Assembly: GCA_945897435.1 (NCBI GenBank)
Contig: CAMDFJ010000008.1
Coordinates: 1 to 48,376 of the forward strand
Source: Candidatus Kuenenia stuttgartensis
GTDB taxonomy: Bacteria; Planctomycetota; Planctomycetia; Pirellulales; UBA1268
Direction of reading: 5' to 3'
Length of the DNA stretch: 48,376 bases
The position numbers and the translations under genes were made by a program. The notes under the pieces were generated by a model that did not search any database, was not told where the DNA came from, and saw only the letters and a program-made list of their open reading frames with translations. How positions within the stretch are numbered: the first letter of the stretch is position 1; the number at the start of each line of letters is the position of its first letter. Shown piece after piece: positions 20,777-29,133 of this stretch.

Positions 20777-23140
20777 TCAGACTCCGGCCTCGGCCGCCTC
20801 GGCCGCCTTCATCTGGGCATGGTAGAGCCGGGCGTAGGCGCCGTCCGCCGCGAGCAGTTCGTCGTGGGTGCCTGTCTCGACGATCCGGCCGGCGTCGAGC
20901 ACCACCAGCCGGTTGGCTCGCCGCAGGGTGGACAGACGGTGGGCGATGGCGATGGTCGTACGACCGACCACGAGCCGATCGATGGCCGCCTGGATCACCG
21001 CCTCGGTCTCCGGATCGACACTCGATGTCGCCTCGTCGAGGACGAGGATTCGGGGATCGACGAGCAGCGCGCGGGCGATCGAGAGTCGCTGCCGCTCGCC
21101 GCCGGAGAGCGAGCCGCCCCGTTCGCCCACCCGCGAGTCGTAGGCGGCGGGCAGTCGGAGGATGAAGTCGTGGGCACCGGCGGCCCGCGCCGCCGCCACG
21201 ATCCGCTCCCGGGAGGCATCCGTGCGTCCGTAGGCGATGTTTTCCGCGACGGTCCCGAAGAACAGGAAGGGCTCCTGCAGCACACAGCCGAGGTTCCGGC
21301 GGAAGTCGGCGATCGAGAACTGCCGCAGGTCGACGCCGTCGATCGTGATCGAACCGCTCGACGGGTCGTAGAACCGGCAGACGAGATTCGCCAGGGTCGA
21401 CTTGCCGGAGCCGCTTGCGCCGACGAGTCCGATCATTTCTCCGGGCTCGATCGTGAGGTCGATGCCGTGGAGAATCTCACGCGTTCCGTAGCGGAAATGG
21501 ACCCCCGAGATCACGATCCGTCCGGCGACGCGGCCGGGATCGACAGGCCGCGTCGGCTCCGCGACGGTCGGCGTGCAGTCGAGGATCTCGAAGATCCGCT
21601 GGGCGCTGGCGGCCGCCCGTTGGGTCGCCGGAACCATGTGGATCATCGATTCGACCCGGCCATAGAAGCGTGAGATGTAGGTCAGGAAGGCGGTCAGGGT
21701 GCCGACCGTCACGCCCCCGCCGAAGACGAGCCATGCGCCGGCCGCCCAGACGACGAGGATTCCCGCCTCGCTGCAGAGGCTGACGAGCGGCCCGAAGAAC
21801 GACCAGACGACATTGACCCGGTCGTTGGCCTCGAGAACCCGGTCGTTGGCGGCCCTGAATCTGGCAACCTCCCTTGATTCCTGGGCGAATGCCTTGACCA
21901 CCCGGATTCCCGGGATCGTGTCGGCCAGCACGCTCGTCATGTCGGCCCAGGCGACGCTGGCCCGGGCGAAGCCGCGCCTGAGCCGATAGCGGACCGCATA
22001 GGAGAGCCAGACGACGAATGGAAAGGGGGCGAGCGTGACGAGGGCCAGGATCGGGTTCATCCAGATGAGCACTGCCGCGGTCAGCAGCACGAGCATCACG
22101 TTTGAGGAGAACTCGATCAGGTTCACCGAGAGAAACACGTTGATCCGGTCGGTGTCGCTGCCGACCCGCGTGATCAGGTCGCCGGTCCGTTTCCCGGAGA
22201 AGAAATCGAGGGAAAGCCCCTGCATGTGTGCGTAGGTTCGGACGCGGAGATCGGCCGCCACACGCTCGCTCACCCAGGCGAGCACCCAGGATCGGGCCCA
22301 GGAAAGAATCCAGGCCGCGACCGCCGCGATGGCGAGGCCGCCGAGATACCACCAGACGACTGAAAACGGTACGGGCACGCCGGACTGCCTTGGGATCAGC
22401 ACCTGATCGACAAGCGGCATCGTCAGGTACGGAGGCACGAGCGCCGCTGCGGTTCCCGCCAGCGACAAAAGCCCGCCGAGGATCGCCATGCCGGCGTGCG
22501 GCCGCACGAAGGAGACCAGTCGCCCCAGGGCCCGCCACGAGGTCGCCGTCGGCTCGTTCTCCAGCCCACCTTCCTCGGCATCGACCGCCTTGGCGGACGC
22601 CGCGGGTTCATCGATTCGCACGGCAGCGGGCTCGAGCGCCGAATCCTCGTCGTCATCAGTCGGTTCGCGTCGCGTCAGTTCATCGAACGCATCCTCGAGG
22701 GCATGCACGCCCTTCGCCCGAGCCGGCGTGAACAGCCAGCGGGCCACGACCTGCCCGTCGCGAGAGAGCTCGATCCTCCCGACGGCGTTTCGCAGTCGCA
22801 CGTCGAACAGCGTCGACTGGTCGATCGGCCAGAACCAGACGCCCTGCGGCGAGACGGTTGCAGGATCGCGATCGGCCGAGGCAGGGGCATCGCTCAGCAG
22901 GCGGCGATCGGTGAGCACGATCCAGCCGTCGGCGAAGTCGAGGTTGGCATCGAGATCGAACCTCGCGGTCCCGATCAGCGTTTCACCAGGCTCGAGTTGG
23001 AACCGTTCCAGGGGCGGCAGGGACGGCGTGCCGGGCAGGTCTGAGGCGGATCCGGCCTGACCAGCCGGGGAGACGGGGGGCTGGAGACCGGTTTCTGTTT
23101 CGGCCGACCTCCGCTCCTTGGTCCGGTGAAGATTTTCCAT
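20777..23140 (-). CDS. ABC exporter with N-terminal PH-like domain, cyanophycin-associated
   Basis: Full-length exporter half-transporter of 787 residues. Residues about 45-165 form a PH/GRAM-like beta domain (ETLIGTARFDLDANLDF, GWIVLTDRRLLSD, RIELSRDGQVVARWLF), unusual in front of an ABC exporter. After an acidic linker, six membrane helices (about 195-480) form the exporter domain (DFFSGKRTGDLITRVGSDTD). The ATPase domain has Walker A GLVGASGSGKST, signature SLSGGERQRLSIARAL, Walker B ILVLDEATSSVD and IAIAHRLSTL. It probably works as a homodimer. The substrate is unknown; peptides or lipids are both possible. It heads a leftward pair with DUF1854 and is divergent from cphA across an 892-bp gap. 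ATG 23140 is taken; an in-frame TTG at 23197 exists. Confidence 0.9.
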   Translation of the reverse strand: MENLHRTKERRSAETETGLQPPVSPAGQAGSASDLPGTPSLPPLERFQLEPGETLIGTARFDLDANLDFADGWIVLTDRRLLSDAPASADRDPATVSPQGVWFWPIDQSTLFDVRLRNAVGRIELSRDGQVVARWLFTPARAKGVHALEDAFDELTRREPTDDDEDSALEPAAVRIDEPAASAKAVDAEEGGLENEPTATSWRALGRLVSFVRPHAGMAILGGLLSLAGTAAALVPPYLTMPLVDQVLIPRQSGVPVPFSVVWWYLGGLAIAAVAAWILSWARSWVLAWVSERVAADLRVRTYAHMQGLSLDFFSGKRTGDLITRVGSDTDRINVFLSVNLIEFSSNVMLVLLTAAVLIWMNPILALVTLAPFPFVVWLSYAVRYRLRRGFARASVAWADMTSVLADTIPGIRVVKAFAQESREVARFRAANDRVLEANDRVNVVWSFFGPLVSLCSEAGILVVWAAGAWLVFGGGVTVGTLTAFLTYISRFYGRVESMIHMVPATQRAAASAQRIFEILDCTPTVAEPTRPVDPGRVAGRIVISGVHFRYGTREILHGIDLTIEPGEMIGLVGASGSGKSTLANLVCRFYDPSSGSITIDGVDLRQFSIADFRRNLGCVLQEPFLFFGTVAENIAYGRTDASRERIVAAARAAGAHDFILRLPAAYDSRVGERGGSLSGGERQRLSIARALLVDPRILVLDEATSSVDPETEAVIQAAIDRLVVGRTTIAIAHRLSTLRRANRLVVLDAGRIVETGTHDELLAADGAYARLYHAQMKAAEAAEAGV

Positions 23141-24032
23141 GAAAAGCGGCTGAAACGAGGCTTTTAGGACTGTTTTTCCGGGGACAACAGCCCCCAATCT
23201 GAAACGACAGAATCTTGCGTGGACTTCCGAAGATACCTAAATTAACTGGACTGGAACTGGATCGACCGGTTCATCTGGAAAAACTTACCTGCCTACCGCC
23301 GCCCGCCTCGCGATTTTGCACACCGGATTGTCATCCCTTCCATGACCACGCCCCGCGGCCCGCATTGGCAGGCCTGCCTTTCGGCGGACGCTCGTACTGC
23401 AGTCGGCATCCTGAAGCGTTGGCACGGAACGTGCAATGTTTCTCTGTCACTGAAAAATGATTCGCATCCTCTTCAGGGAAGCGTAAACTTTTCCGATCGG
23501 TCTGCGAAGGCTTCGAATGCTTTGCAGAAGAACCTTCAGGACCGAACTGAACGAACTGACGATTCAGACTTCGAAGATTGGTGTGATTCGATTCATGGTG
23601 CCGGAGGGCACGCGTACCGCAAGCGATCGCACGTCCGCGCGGCGTGCGGCGGTGCAATGCGGCCCTCGGGTTTGGGAAACATTACGACCCATGGCCACTT
23701 CGGCCGGTTGGTGGTTCGCTGGTTCCTCCCTCCAGGGATGGCTCTTCCTTCCCATGTTCTTCCGCCTGACTGCGAAGCCGTGCTTCGCCAGAGGCACCTC
23801 GCCCGCGGCCCCGGACTCCCGGCCGCCCTGACGACGGCAGTCGTCGCGTTCGGTGAGACCCCCGCCCTTGCTAACCGGGCTTCGCGGGCGACGCGCCCGC
23901 CCAGCCCAGACTTGATCCGTGCGGCCTCCATTCCCCCAACGTCCCCAGGAACGTCCTGCGGCCGGGGGAGGCCCACACAAACCCAGCCCACGCACGCGTC
24001 TGCGTCCGGGCAAGAGAGCATGCCTTTCTTCC
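23141..24032. other. Long divergent regulatory region, ABC exporter / cphA
   Basis: 892 bases without a credible gene. Bases 23200-23600 are clearly richer in A+T than the flanks. They hold tandem ACTGGA-type repeats near 23240-23262, a 12-base perfect palindrome GGCAGGCCTGCC at 23367-23378, the sigma-54 site at 23420, a hairpin TCTGCGAAG/CTTTGCAGA at 23501-23528 and a direct repeat CGAACTGA at 23543 and 23552. The G+C-rich second half (23640-24030) has further hairpins, for example GCGAAGC-CGT-GCTTCGC at 23772-23788. Open frames across it have no protein-like composition. It may encode a structured leader or small RNA. Confidence 0.55.
23420..23435 (+). promoter_or_regulatory. Sigma-54 promoter upstream of cphA
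   Basis: TGGCACGGAACGTGCA matches the sigma-54 consensus TGGCACG-N4-TTGCA at every position except one (G for T). GG at 23421-23422 and GC at 23433-23434 have the required spacing. Transcription would begin near 23446 and give a leader of about 585 bases before the cphA ATG. The element is also a near inverted repeat (TTGGCACG-GAA-CGTGCAA with one extra base), so an operator is an alternative. Enhancer sites were not identified. Confidence 0.62.
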
Positions 24033-27000
24033 ATGGAGATCATTTCGCTCAAGGTTCTGCGCGGTCCCAACCAGTGGGCTTCGTTTCCCGTTCTTGAGGT
24101 CTGGGTCGACCTCGGCCACCTCGAGGACTACCCGTCCAACACGCTTCCTGGATTCAACGAACGGGTGATGCAGTGGCTGCCGACAATGATCGAGCACCGC
24201 TGCACCATCGGCGAGCGGGGAGGGTTCTTCGAGCGGCTGCGAACCGGCACCTGGATGGGCCACATCCTCGAGCACGTGACCCTGGAACTGCAGTCGCTGG
24301 CGGGCACCACCGTCGGCTTCGGGCGGGCCCGCGAGGCCAAGACCCGCGGCGTCTACAAGGTGGCGATCGAGTACAAGGAGGAGAAGTTCGCGGTCGAGTG
24401 TCTCCACACCGCCCACCGTCTCTTGAAGGCGGCGATCTCCGGTGATTCTTTCGAGATCGGCTGCGAGCTGAAGCGGCTGCGGAAGGTATTGCTCGAGGAG
24501 CAGCTCGGCCCCAGCACCCGCTCGATCGTCGAGGCCGCGGTTGCCCGTGGCATCCCCGCGACACGCCTCACCGCCGGCTCGCTGGTGCGCCTTGGACAGG
24601 GTTCGAAGCAGCGGCGGATCATCGCCGCCGAGACCGACCGCACCGGCGCCGTGGCCGAGTGCATCGCCCAGGACAAGGACCTTACCCGCACGCTGCTCGC
24701 CGAGGCCGGCATCCCGGTGCCCGAGGGCAGACCGGTGGCCGATGCGGCCGATGCCTGGGCCGTTGCAGAGGAGATCGCGGCGCCCGTGGTCGTCAAGCCG
24801 CGTTATGGGAATCAGGGCCGCGGGGTGTCGGTCGACCTCAAGAGCCGCGAAGAGATCGAGCGGGCCTGGCAGCTGGCCCGCGAGCAGGATGCCTGTGTCG
24901 TGGTTGAGCGGTTCGTGACCGGCGACGACTACCGTCTCCTGGTCGTCGGTGGCCGGGTCGTGGCAGCCGCCCGCCGCCGCCCGCCGACGGTCACCGGCGA
25001 CGGCTTTCTCACGGTGAAGCAACTCGCCGACCGGGTCAACGAGGATCCGCGGCGCTGCGGCGACCATGCAACCTGCCTCAGCCCGGTGATCATCGACGAT
25101 GTGGCGCTCGCCGTGCTCGATGAACAGGGGCTCACGCCCGAGAGCATTCCCGAGGACGGGCGGATGGTTTTGCTGCGTCAGAATGCCAACCTCAGCACCG
25201 GCGGCACTTCGGAGGACGTCACCGACATCGTCCATGCCGAGGTGGCGGCCCGGGCCGTCGAGGCCGCGCGGATCATCGGACTCGACGTGGCTGGAATCGA
25301 CATCGTGACCTCCGACATCAGTCAGCCGCTCGAGTCGCAGCGGGGTGTCGTCATCGAGGTCAATGCCGGCCCAGGACTGCGGATGCATCTCGAGCCCACC
25401 GTGGGCACGCCGCGAAATGTCGGCGAGGCGATCGTCGAGACGCTCTTCACCGCCGACGATGACGGCCGGATCCCTGTGGCCGCGGTCACCGGCACGAACG
25501 GCAAGACCACGGTCACCCGTCTGATCTCACATCTGGCCGCGACAGGCGGGGCGACGGTTGGCACCACATGCACCGAGGGCATCTGGGTCGGCGGACGGCA
25601 GATCGACGCCGGCGACTGCAGTGGTCCGGCGAGCGCCCGCCGCGTGCTTGCCAATCCGTCGGTCACCACGGCAGTTCTCGAAACAGCCCGCGGCGGCATC
25701 CTCCGGGAGGGCTGCGGCTTCGACTTCTGCGACGTCGCGGTGGTCACCAACATCTCCTCGGGCGACCATCTCGGCCTCGGGGAAATCGACACACCGGAAC
25801 GGCTCGCCTGGGTGAAGGGAGCGATCGTCGCCGCGGTGAGCAAGAAGGGCTCTGCCGTGCTCAACGCGGCAGATCCGCTGGTCGTCGACATGAAGAAGTG
25901 GTGCAAGGGGCAGGTTGTCTACTTCGCCCTCGACCCGGCCAACCCGGTGGTCGTCGAGCACCTCGCGCAGGGTGGTCTGGCGGCCACCGTGCGGGAAGGC
26001 TGGATCGTCCTCTGCGACGGCCCACGGGAGACCCGTCTCGCCCATCTCGAACGGGTGCCGCTGGTCCACAAGGGACTCGTCGGCTTCCAGGTCGAAAACG
26101 TGCTCGCGAGTGCCGCCGCGGCCTGGCGGCTCGGGGTGCCGCTGGAACTGGTGCGACTGGGGCTGGAGAGCTTTTCCTCCGGTTCCGCCGGGTCACCCGG
26201 CCGGTTCAACCTGCTCGATCTCGATGGGGCGGCGATCGTGGTCGACTACGGCCACAACGTGCCGTCGCTGGAGCAGATCTGCAGCACCCTCCGCAGGCTG
26301 CCCCATCCGCGACGGATTGCGGTCTACTCGGCCGCAGGCGACCGCCGCGACGAGGATCTGATCGTCCAGGGCCGGCTCCTCGGCGAGACCTTCGACCGGG
26401 TGGTGATCTACGAAGACGCCTACATTCGCGGCCGGCAGCCGGGCGAGATCACCCGACTGCTCTCCGAAGGCATCCGTCAGGCGGGTGATGCCGGCCGCAG
26501 CACGCTGATCGAGTCGGGGGGCGACTGGGCAACATCCGCGGCCCTCGTGCTCGATGCCGCCACGGCGGGAGACCTCATCCTCCTGCAGCCCGATACCATC
26601 GAGCAGACGATCCCCTGGCTGCAGGCCCGGTATGGCTCGCGGCTCCGCGACAGCAACTTCGACGAGATGGCCGGGATCACCGTCCGCGAGTCGGAGGTGC
26701 GGCTCCCCGGACCGCACGAACCGGTCGAGGTCCGCACTGGCCGCCTCGGACAGACGGTCTGCGCGACCCGACAGATCGCCGCCGGCGAAACGGTGCTCTC
26801 GACCTGGGGACCACAGGCCCCGAAGCGGTCGCGGCACACGATGCAGGTCGAGACCGACATGCACATCCTGCCCGACGGCGTGACGGTGCTCGTCAACCAT
26901 TCCTGCGAACCCAACTGCGGAGTGGTGATCCGGGCCGGCGTCAAACGGATCGAGGTTCGGGCACTGAGGCCGATCGCAGCAGGTGAGGAGCTGACGTTCG

Positions 27001-27188
27001 ACTACGACACGTTCGAGTACGAGGTCGAACACCTCGGCGGGCAGTGTCGCTGCGGCGCCGCCAAGTGTCGTGGTAGGGTCGCCGGATACAAGCATCTCGC
27101 GGCCGACGTGAAGGCCCGATACGGCGAATTCATCGCCGACTATCTCCGGATTCTCGACGCCGACGTGACCAGCCCCGTCGGTGCCTGA
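24033..27188 (+). CDS. cphA: Cyanophycin synthetase fused to a SET-domain methyltransferase module
   Basis: 1051-residue protein. Residues 1 to about 885 are a complete cyanophycin synthetase, which builds poly-aspartate with arginine side chains. There is an N-terminal domain (EIISLKVLRGPNQWASFPV), an ATP-grasp domain with glycine loop KPRYGNQGRG (255-264) that adds Asp, and a Mur-ligase domain with P-loop GTNGKTT (487-493), ETARGGILREG and VDYGHN that adds Arg. Residues about 890-1045 are a SET domain: GRLGQTVCATRQIAAGE, NHSCEPN (955-961), LTFDYDT (987-993) and post-SET Cys1005, 1007 and 1012. The frame is open throughout, with a roughly 25-residue linker. The ATG at 24033 gives the canonical family N-terminus. 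No cyanophycinase gene is in the window. SET enzymes methylate lysine; the target here is unknown. Confidence 0.93.
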   Translation: MEIISLKVLRGPNQWASFPVLEVWVDLGHLEDYPSNTLPGFNERVMQWLPTMIEHRCTIGERGGFFERLRTGTWMGHILEHVTLELQSLAGTTVGFGRAREAKTRGVYKVAIEYKEEKFAVECLHTAHRLLKAAISGDSFEIGCELKRLRKVLLEEQLGPSTRSIVEAAVARGIPATRLTAGSLVRLGQGSKQRRIIAAETDRTGAVAECIAQDKDLTRTLLAEAGIPVPEGRPVADAADAWAVAEEIAAPVVVKPRYGNQGRGVSVDLKSREEIERAWQLAREQDACVVVERFVTGDDYRLLVVGGRVVAAARRRPPTVTGDGFLTVKQLADRVNEDPRRCGDHATCLSPVIIDDVALAVLDEQGLTPESIPEDGRMVLLRQNANLSTGGTSEDVTDIVHAEVAARAVEAARIIGLDVAGIDIVTSDISQPLESQRGVVIEVNAGPGLRMHLEPTVGTPRNVGEAIVETLFTADDDGRIPVAAVTGTNGKTTVTRLISHLAATGGATVGTTCTEGIWVGGRQIDAGDCSGPASARRVLANPSVTTAVLETARGGILREGCGFDFCDVAVVTNISSGDHLGLGEIDTPERLAWVKGAIVAAVSKKGSAVLNAADPLVVDMKKWCKGQVVYFALDPANPVVVEHLAQGGLAATVREGWIVLCDGPRETRLAHLERVPLVHKGLVGFQVENVLASAAAAWRLGVPLELVRLGLESFSSGSAGSPGRFNLLDLDGAAIVVDYGHNVPSLEQICSTLRRLPHPRRIAVYSAAGDRRDEDLIVQGRLLGETFDRVVIYEDAYIRGRQPGEITRLLSEGIRQAGDAGRSTLIESGGDWATSAALVLDAATAGDLILLQPDTIEQTIPWLQARYGSRLRDSNFDEMAGITVRESEVRLPGPHEPVEVRTGRLGQTVCATRQIAAGETVLSTWGPQAPKRSRHTMQVETDMHILPDGVTVLVNHSCEPNCGVVIRAGVKRIEVRALRPIAAGEELTFDYDTFEYEVEHLGGQCRCGAAKCRGRVAGYKHLAADVKARYGEFIADYLRILDADVTSPVGA

Positions 27189-27444: not shown

Positions 27445-29133
27445 ATGACCGCTCTACGTCTCTTCTCGACCCGTTCGTTCGCCTGCGACGCCGCCCGGGT
27501 GGCTGCCTGTGTCGCGCTCGTGGCGTCGCAGTCGGCTGCGATCGCCACCGCCCAGTGCTGCGGCCAGTCCGCCCCGGCGCCGGTTGCAACCCAGACCTAC
27601 AGACTCGACTTCCAGACGGTCTACGACGAACAGCAGATGACGGCCTACCGCGTCTCCTACGAAACCGTCTACGACACCAAGACCTACACCGTCACGAAGC
27701 CCGTCTGGGAAACCCAGACCTCCGAGCGTCGCTACACGGTGCAGCGGCCCGTCTGGGAAACCCAGACCCGCGAAGAGCGATTCACCGTCATGAAGCCGGT
27801 CTACGAGACGCAGATCGTCGACCGCAGCTACGACGTCACCCGTGATGTCGTCGAGACGAGCACCCGCGAGGAACGTTTCACGGTGATGAAGCCGGTCTAC
27901 GAGACCGCCGTGCAGCAGCAGGTCAGCCTGGTTCGCCGTCCGGTCTACGAGACCAGCGAGCGAGAGGAGGCCTTCACCGTGGCCGAGCCGGTGACGACCG
28001 TTCGCACCGCCTACTCGGTTGGCTCCCAGCCGATCGACGTGGTGACGCCGATGGTGGCCCCGGGCAGTTCACAACTCGGCTTCGTGCCGGGCGGATACGC
28101 CGTCAACCCGGCCACGGGACTGATGTCTTGGCAGCGAGGCGGATATGCCTGGACCGTAACCCCGGGCGTCGTCATGAATCAGGTCAGCCGTAGCTACCAG
28201 CCAACCTACACGCCGGTGCAGGTGCCCGAGACCACGATGGTCAACCGGGTGATGACCCGCAAGGTGCCGGTTCAGACGGTCCGCTACGTGGATGAGCAGG
28301 TCGTCCAGCAGGTGCCTGTGCAGACCATGAAGATGGTGGCCGAGGAGCAGGTCCGTCAGGTGCCCGTGCAGACCGTCCGCAAGGTCGTCGAGCGTGTCGA
28401 CAACAAGGTGCCCGTCCAGGTCATGAAGATGGTGGCCGAGGAGCAGGTCCGTCAGGTGCCCGTGCAGGTCTGCAGGATGGTCAGTGAAGAAAAGGTGGAG
28501 CCTGTCAGCGTGCAGGTCTGCAAGTACGTCAACGAGGAACGTTCGATGCAGGTGCCTCGGGTCGTCGAAAAACGCGAACCCTACTCCTACACCGTGCGTT
28601 CGCCGCGGACTGTCGTGATGCGGGTGCCGCTCGATCCCTGCGGCAATCCGATCCCCGCCGCCGCCGCGACCGTTCCTGCTGTGGGGGCCGCGATGGCTCG
28701 CCCCGCGACCGTCCCTCCGACCGTCGCAGCACCCTCGATCGCCCCCTCTCTGCCGGCCACCCCGACCGGCCCGATGAAGACCTTCAGCGACAAGCCCGCT
28801 GAAGCCGCCCCGCCGGCACAAGAGGGCTGGACCTCATCCGGCCTGGGCCACGTCGACCCCTCCAAGGGCAGTGCGGACAGCAGCGCCATTCGGGTTGAAA
28901 AGCCTGTCGAGAAGGCCTCCGAAGCCGGTGCGGCGCTCCGGCCGATCGAGCCGATCCCGACGCCAGCCCCCTCAATCTCGAAGCCAACCCCAGCCCAGCA
29001 GCCGACAATCGCCCCGCTCGGGCCGTCTGTAGAACCCGCTCCCCCGGCCGCCGACACCCGCGACTTCCCGGCCTCGGAAACCTCGAGCGGCTTGATTCGA
29101 ATCCAGCCCGCCTTCGGCGACCGCTCGACGTAG
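27445..29133 (+). CDS. Secreted repeat-rich planctomycete YTV-type surface protein
   Basis: 562-residue protein with an N-terminal signal sequence (VAACVALVASQSAAIATAQ). Residues about 50-185 hold degenerate 17-20-residue repeats built on YTVxKPVxETQT and FTVMKPVYETQ. Residues about 275-390 hold about seven copies of a 16-residue repeat, VPVQTxKMVxEEQVRQ. The last 150 residues are Pro/Ala/Ser-rich and disordered-looking. Tandem Tyr-Thr-Val repeats of this kind were described in planctomycetes and linked to the cell wall or surface; no enzymatic function is known. Cys is rare apart from a CC near the mature N-terminus and isolated VQVC positions. AAGGAG lies 7 bases before the ATG, a strong start. 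A hairpin terminator follows the stop. Confidence 0.85.
   Translation: MTALRLFSTRSFACDAARVAACVALVASQSAAIATAQCCGQSAPAPVATQTYRLDFQTVYDEQQMTAYRVSYETVYDTKTYTVTKPVWETQTSERRYTVQRPVWETQTREERFTVMKPVYETQIVDRSYDVTRDVVETSTREERFTVMKPVYETAVQQQVSLVRRPVYETSEREEAFTVAEPVTTVRTAYSVGSQPIDVVTPMVAPGSSQLGFVPGGYAVNPATGLMSWQRGGYAWTVTPGVVMNQVSRSYQPTYTPVQVPETTMVNRVMTRKVPVQTVRYVDEQVVQQVPVQTMKMVAEEQVRQVPVQTVRKVVERVDNKVPVQVMKMVAEEQVRQVPVQVCRMVSEEKVEPVSVQVCKYVNEERSMQVPRVVEKREPYSYTVRSPRTVVMRVPLDPCGNPIPAAAATVPAVGAAMARPATVPPTVAAPSIAPSLPATPTGPMKTFSDKPAEAAPPAQEGWTSSGLGHVDPSKGSADSSAIRVEKPVEKASEAGAALRPIEPIPTPAPSISKPTPAQQPTIAPLGPSVEPAPPAADTRDFPASETSSGLIRIQPAFGDRST

Follow-up and report, generated by a model that had tools for sequence, protein, structure and literature searches.

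A cyanophycin synthetase-type protein with a C-terminal SET domain in a family of freshwater planctomycete bacteria

Introduction

Research on cyanophycin and related amino-acid polymers treats them both as nitrogen stores and as biomaterials. The synthetase CphA1 attaches arginine to its polymer, and some CphAs also take lysine, ornithine or citrulline (PMC8560796). The primer-making site of the N domain has been defined as the motif Cx19HxxEH, which is present in 83% of CphA1s, and the H267A exchange in SuCphA1 inactivates the G domain (PMC9262961). Methylated polymers of the cyanophycin type have been made chemically (PMC8560796); we found no report of naturally methylated forms of such polymers in the open-access literature. 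Among SET-domain enzymes, the solved protein closest to the domain described here is BurB, an S-methyltransferase that converts free methionine to S-methylmethionine (PMC12542666). A third point of comparison is the Pls/PosA family, for which a Bdellovibrionales homologue whose adenylation code is DSECYGGVTK was modestly active with L-arginine and not active with four diamino acids; its authors suggested a larger analogue as the possible true substrate (PMC10522769).

CphA and SET domains are each well known, and their fusion in one polypeptide is the new part of this report. A preliminary description of the locus, made from the DNA letters and their translations, knew of no account of this architecture, and we likewise found no published CphA-SET protein in the open-access literature, nor any work there that ties SET domains to poly-lysine synthetases or cyanophycin to DUF1854. 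The fusion comes from a single family of planctomycete bacteria that live in freshwater. The window referred to below is the whole stretch of DNA that was analysed, 48 376 nucleotides in length.

Results and discussion

The fusion gene

The cphA-SET gene of the window (positions 24033-27188, + strand) is a single uninterrupted frame with profile matches at both ends of the protein. Translation reproduced the frame, the coordinates and all motif positions of the preliminary description, giving 1051 residues and no stop, and the CphA plus SET architecture proposed there is borne out by intact motifs and by two profile scores above their cut-offs: TIGR02068 (NCBIfam) matches residues 2-864 with 1058.6 bits (cut-off 850; model positions 1-859 of 862) and PF00856 (Pfam) matches residues 909-991 with 49.9 bits (cut-off 22.4). 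The protein consists of a cyanophycin synthetase part with N, G and M domains, delimited by TIGR02068 and Foldseek (residues 1-866, 24033-26630), a variable linker (residues 867-897, 26631-26723), a SET and post-SET domain, assigned by PF00856, an AlphaFold2 model and the fold match to BurB (residues 898-1019, 26724-27089), and a C-terminal helical tail (residues 1020-1051, 27090-27185), all on the + strand. AlphaFold2 modelling of the full-length protein gave a mean pLDDT of 79.8 and a pTM of 0.60, and the top matches of this model are solved CphA1 structures.

Median dN/dS values calculated over 19 fused genes are 0.13 for the CphA part, 0.41 for the linker, 0.23 for the SET domain and 0.25 for the C-terminal tail; they are rough, with a high dS of about 1, and the order of the regions is clear. 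As its median of 0.23 indicates, the SET part of the fusion is under purifying selection, and the linker is far less constrained. The N-terminal half of the tail is kept in the fused clade and in two standalone SET proteins described below.

The CphA part

The best Foldseek matches of the CphA part are solved CphA1 structures (E 2e-88). The N domain contains the primer-making site (C57, H77, E80 and H81; 24201-24275, + strand), the G domain the ATP-grasp loop KPRYGNQGRG (residues 255-264; 24795-24824, + strand), and the M domain both the Mur-ligase P-loop GTNGKTT (residues 487-493; 25491-25511, + strand) and the pair D578-H579, equivalent to D585/H586 of SuCphA1 (25764-25769, + strand). The ATP-grasp loop departs from CphA1 in having Gln261 (GNQGRG; 24813-24815) at the position of the G-domain histidine (H267 in SuCphA1), which is present in all solved CphA1s and is not stated to define the family. 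Since Gln261 replaces this histidine, it would be premature to take the product for standard cyanophycin. The glutamine is common to most CphAs of the order, while one genome (G036, locus L196) has histidine; it occurs in fused and unfused CphAs alike, so that a link between the SET domain and the G-domain glutamine was rejected. The EDAYxRGR stretch of the M domain was read for arginine specificity, and the position varies among other CphAs.

The SET domain

The SET domain was modelled by AlphaFold2 from a broad alignment with a pLDDT of 92.0 and a pTM of 0.86. Its conserved stretches are RHTMQV (residues 934-939; 26832-26849), which aligns with the methionine- and SAM-contacting stretch of BurB (R70, H72 and T73), NHSCEPN (residues 955-961; 26895-26915), LTFDYDT (residues 987-993; 26991-27011) and the post-SET cysteines 1005, 1007 and 1012 (27045-27068), all on the + strand. 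Across 36 aligned SET domains, H956, C958, D990, Y991 and the three post-SET cysteines are invariant, and Q938 of RHTMQV is nearly so. The best solved match is BurB, both in sequence (E 1.2e-11) and in fold (Z 14.7), with the histone lysine methyltransferases ASH1L and MLL close behind in fold (Z about 13). Because the histone enzymes score nearly as high as BurB, the predicted fold leaves the substrate undecided between the BurB type and the histone methyltransferase type. The domain had been called a SET-domain lysine methyltransferase; the SET assignment stands on PF00856 and the motifs, whereas the lysine type was an assumption, the nearest solved SET domain being BurB.

The genome of the window encodes a second, standalone SET protein of 181 residues (G000:C42:21054-21338; loci L001 and L140) with the more typical motif SYCMEL. 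This protein falls into a different clade of the SET tree, and derivation of the fusion from it was rejected.

Distribution and history in the family

Of the 72 genomes of the GTDB family (f1), 52 give a strong match, and these comprise 27 with the fusion in one frame, two with the fusion split over two contigs, 18 with a CphA that ends at about residue 883-909, before the SET domain, four cut by contig ends and one with a shorter paralogue only (counts made by hand from the match listing). The full-length fusion also occurs, at 69-84% identity, in named MAGs that were assembled independently; most of these bear the label Planctomycetia, Planctomycetaceae or Pirellulales, and many have isolate names of a lake type. 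A hidden stop or frameshift, raised at the outset, is not borne out in a fusion that is uninterrupted in 27 genomes, and relatives, far from always having two separate genes, are mostly fused. Five MAG records titled Candidatus Kuenenia stuttgartiensis (L042, L044, L051, L056 and L058) carry the locus and group with the family of the window; their species labels look wrong.

A phylogeny of the CphA part unites the family in one clade (100/100), with unfused members interspersed among fused ones. The fused/unfused label changes seven times on this tree, one of these changes (L026) being just a contig end, and the well supported branches force at least three changes. The CphA tree by itself cannot separate gain of the SET domain from its loss. 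The unfused proteins of L049 and L050 retain a recognizable linker that ends in the first SET residues, and the fused SET domains resemble one another far more than any other SET domain found; on these grounds, the SET domain was probably gained once and then lost repeatedly. Beside the short, unfused cphA genes no SET sequence was found, the linker remnant in L049 and L050 being the only trace, and most genomes with a short CphA are without a strong SET match, so that a move of the SET domain to a separate gene, adjacent or elsewhere, was rejected for these lineages. Since relatives lost the SET domain and kept CphA, the SET domain is dispensable for keeping CphA and is an accessory step rather than part of polymerization.

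Neighbouring genes, cyanophycinase and CphA paralogues

Upstream of the fusion and divergent from it lies a gene for a cyanophycin metabolism-associated ABC transporter (20777-23197, - strand; NF052233, 1022.3 bits, cut-off 880). Its position next to cphA is conserved in L064 and in seven or more further planctomycete families. The downstream gene (27445-29133, + strand) encodes a YTV-repeat protein (PF07639) and is a conserved neighbour of the fusion, seen at about 20 loci; we know of no link between it and cyanophycin.

Although most genomes of the family have CphA, no recognizable cyanophycinase (TIGR02069) was found in 34 of 36, including that of the window, with only G022 and G029 having one, and this holds too for family members without the SET domain. 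PF03575 is also absent from the genome of the window. The family may have another depolymerase.

A shorter CphA paralogue accompanies the fusion in 13 of the 29 genomes that carry it and occurs in none of the 18 that lack it (Fisher p 0.0006, not corrected for relatedness). Examples are L192 5123-7330, L193 4021-6603, L194 4028-6142 and L195 4345-6549; the L194 paralogue keeps the G-domain histidine and has lost the Mur P-loop, as in CphA2-like enzymes. Tandem cphA pairs occur in L061 (3108-8688), where one member has histidine and the other glutamine in the G domain, and in L064 (5974-11491).

SET genes beside CphA and Pls/PosA-like synthetases

When 396 genomes of the order were scanned with a profile of the fused SET domain, only two close relatives (160-161 bits) came up outside the family, both in one genome of another family (G081, family f9). 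The first is a 160-residue gene that starts 188 bp downstream of cphA on the same strand; the second lies at a contig end, with the upstream gene missing. The SET-cphA link thus takes the form of a fusion in one family and of neighbouring genes in one genome of another. It is not a general rule, as a SET gene was found neither near cphA at nine further planctomycete loci from outside the family nor beside cphA in Bacteroidota loci.

The same profile found 16 further standalone SET proteins in 392 genomes of the phylum; six of their genes immediately precede a gene for an adenylation-domain protein and share its strand. Those of the adenylation-domain genes that are long enough to be judged encode poly(amino acid) synthetases of the Pls/PosA type; they are called Pls/PosA-like here because their TIGR02353 scores (327 and 351 bits) lie below the curated cut-off of 423, and TIGR01733 gives about 360 bits. 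The six synthetase-adjacent SET proteins form one clade of the SET tree (98/96). A profile built from them found five more, of which three are again upstream of such a synthetase gene, and next reached the SET domain of the window itself (6.8e-26). In total, the arrangement was seen at nine loci in nine planctomycete genomes (L158, L164, L165, L167, L168, L170, L206, L207 and L208), and none of 20 lower-scoring SET proteins examined in the order has a synthetase neighbour; these counts come from scans ranked by likeness to the fused SET domain, not from a random sample, and carry no formal test. There is no gene of the Pls/PosA type within the window.

The eight readable adenylation codes of these synthetases, D-S-E-C-(V/A)-G-G-V-T as read by motif position and not from structure, nearly match the code of the arginine-preferring Bdellovibrionales homologue and can hence be termed arginine-like. 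As CphA attaches arginine and the codes of the synthetases are arginine-like, the element common to the two settings may be a basic amino acid, free or polymer-bound. The fused and the synthetase-adjacent SET domains are only about 27-35% identical, and their substrates may therefore differ. The pairs of SET and Pls/PosA-like genes with an arginine-like code form a possible biosynthetic locus that we have not seen described.

Possible function of the fusion protein

Our tentative proposal, plausible though somewhat short of probable, is a CphA-family synthetase with a tethered, active SET domain that methylates the basic residues of the polymer or their free precursors. With SAM as methyl donor, the SET domain would methylate the growing polymer on its basic side chains, of arginine or lysine type, or, alternatively, would methylate a free basic amino acid before the M domain attaches it, and the outcome would be a partly methylated cyanophycin-like polymer. 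We infer SAM binding, methylation and the substrate of the SET domain. The proposal is favoured by the two ways in which SET is tied to cphA (fusion and downstream gene), by the SET relatives beside Pls/PosA-like synthetases with an arginine-like code, and by the invariant catalytic and zinc residues together with the SET dN/dS. Against it stand the occurrence of the same fold in protein methyltransferases, the action of BurB, the nearest solved relative, on methionine, the dependence of the arginine code on a single, modestly active homologue, and the nine other planctomycete cphA loci that have no SET gene nearby. To our knowledge, methylation of arginine is not a generally known activity of SET enzymes, which also counts against it. 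The idea of a modified polymer in the preliminary description holds up; the choice that it left among polymer, synthetase and granule-bound proteins, like that between a polymer-bound and a free substrate, cannot be made from sequence. Methylation of lysine specifically is not indicated, as related SET proteins adjoin synthetases with an arginine-like code.

An unlikely, though still credible, alternative is that the targets of the SET domain are lysine residues in CphA itself or in proteins bound to the granules, a modification that would regulate polymer synthesis or granule assembly. The nearly equal fit to histone lysine methyltransferases (Z about 13 versus 14.7), the presence of NHSCxPN, the catalytic tyrosine and the post-SET zinc cysteines, and the suitability of cis tethering for self-modification all speak for it, but the SET genes beside Pls/PosA-like synthetases point to polymer synthesis as the theme rather than to one protein target, and a SET protein of a more typical kind, from another clade, is encoded separately in the genome. 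It is more doubtful that the domain acts like BurB, methylating free methionine or some other small amino acid that has nothing to do with the polymer, and is merely co-expressed through the fusion. BurB is the top match in sequence and fold, and the RxHT.Q stretch and the NHSC histidine, which contact substrate or SAM in BurB, are held in common; in the SET tree, however, BurB joins other planctomycete SET proteins (100/98) apart from the fused ones, although as a long branch represented by residues 40-158 only (L160 and L169, also long branches, are misaligned and are to be ignored in that tree), its H138 and R133 are not conserved, and no DMSP-pathway neighbours were seen around the fusion gene. 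Slightly less probable again is a SET domain that is no longer catalytic and serves as a zinc-bound docking or oligomerization module: it has been lost several times while CphA stayed and is less constrained than CphA (0.23 versus 0.13), but a scaffold would have no need of the cofactor-binding and catalytic residues, which are invariant with the three cysteines in 36 sequences. An artefact, in which a chimeric assembly or an overlooked stop or frameshift would have joined two genes, has a negligible probability although the source is a fragmented MAG of 205 contigs, as 27 uninterrupted copies with identical frame and junction and the independently assembled MAGs rule it out. The small probability left over falls to explanations beyond those considered here.

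Returning to the proposed methylation of polymer or precursors, such a step would amount to a genetically encoded tuning of charge, solubility or breakdown. This would fit a family that has CphA but nearly no recognizable cyanophycinase, although the lineages without the SET domain lack cyanophycinase equally. Beyond the fusion protein, it is possible, though less likely than not, that a bacterial SET clade, fused or adjacent to CphA and adjacent to Pls/PosA-like synthetases, is dedicated to poly(amino acid) synthesis and makes naturally methylated polymers. If so, this would be a class of modification not described before and a function for a bacterial SET group outside chromatin and protein methylation.

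Comparison with known systems

The fusion protein shares with CphA1 (TIGR02068; PDB entries 7wac and 7lg5) the N, G and M domains over residues 1-866, with about 40% identity in the structural alignment, and keeps the primer-making Cx19HxxEH motif, the Mur P-loop and the D-H pair; it differs in the added C-terminal SET domain, besides the G-domain glutamine. BurB (PDB entries 9l4t and 9l4v) resembles the SET domain most closely, with the RxHT.Q stretch in common and H93 aligned with H956, but its H138 and R133 are without counterpart in the fused domain and it is a standalone 172-residue protein of DMSP and malleicyprol synthesis. The protein lysine methyltransferases ASH1L, MLL and SETD2 (fold Z about 11-13) share NHSCxPN, the catalytic tyrosine and the post-SET zinc cysteines, whereas the fused SET domain has no pre-SET domain. 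The other SET protein of the genome has a YxM-type stretch where the fused domain has the RHTMQ-type stretch. The Pls/PosA family (TIGR02353; PMC10522769) consists of NRPS-type enzymes unrelated to CphA, but these also make amino-acid polymers, and relatives of the fused SET domain adjoin them.
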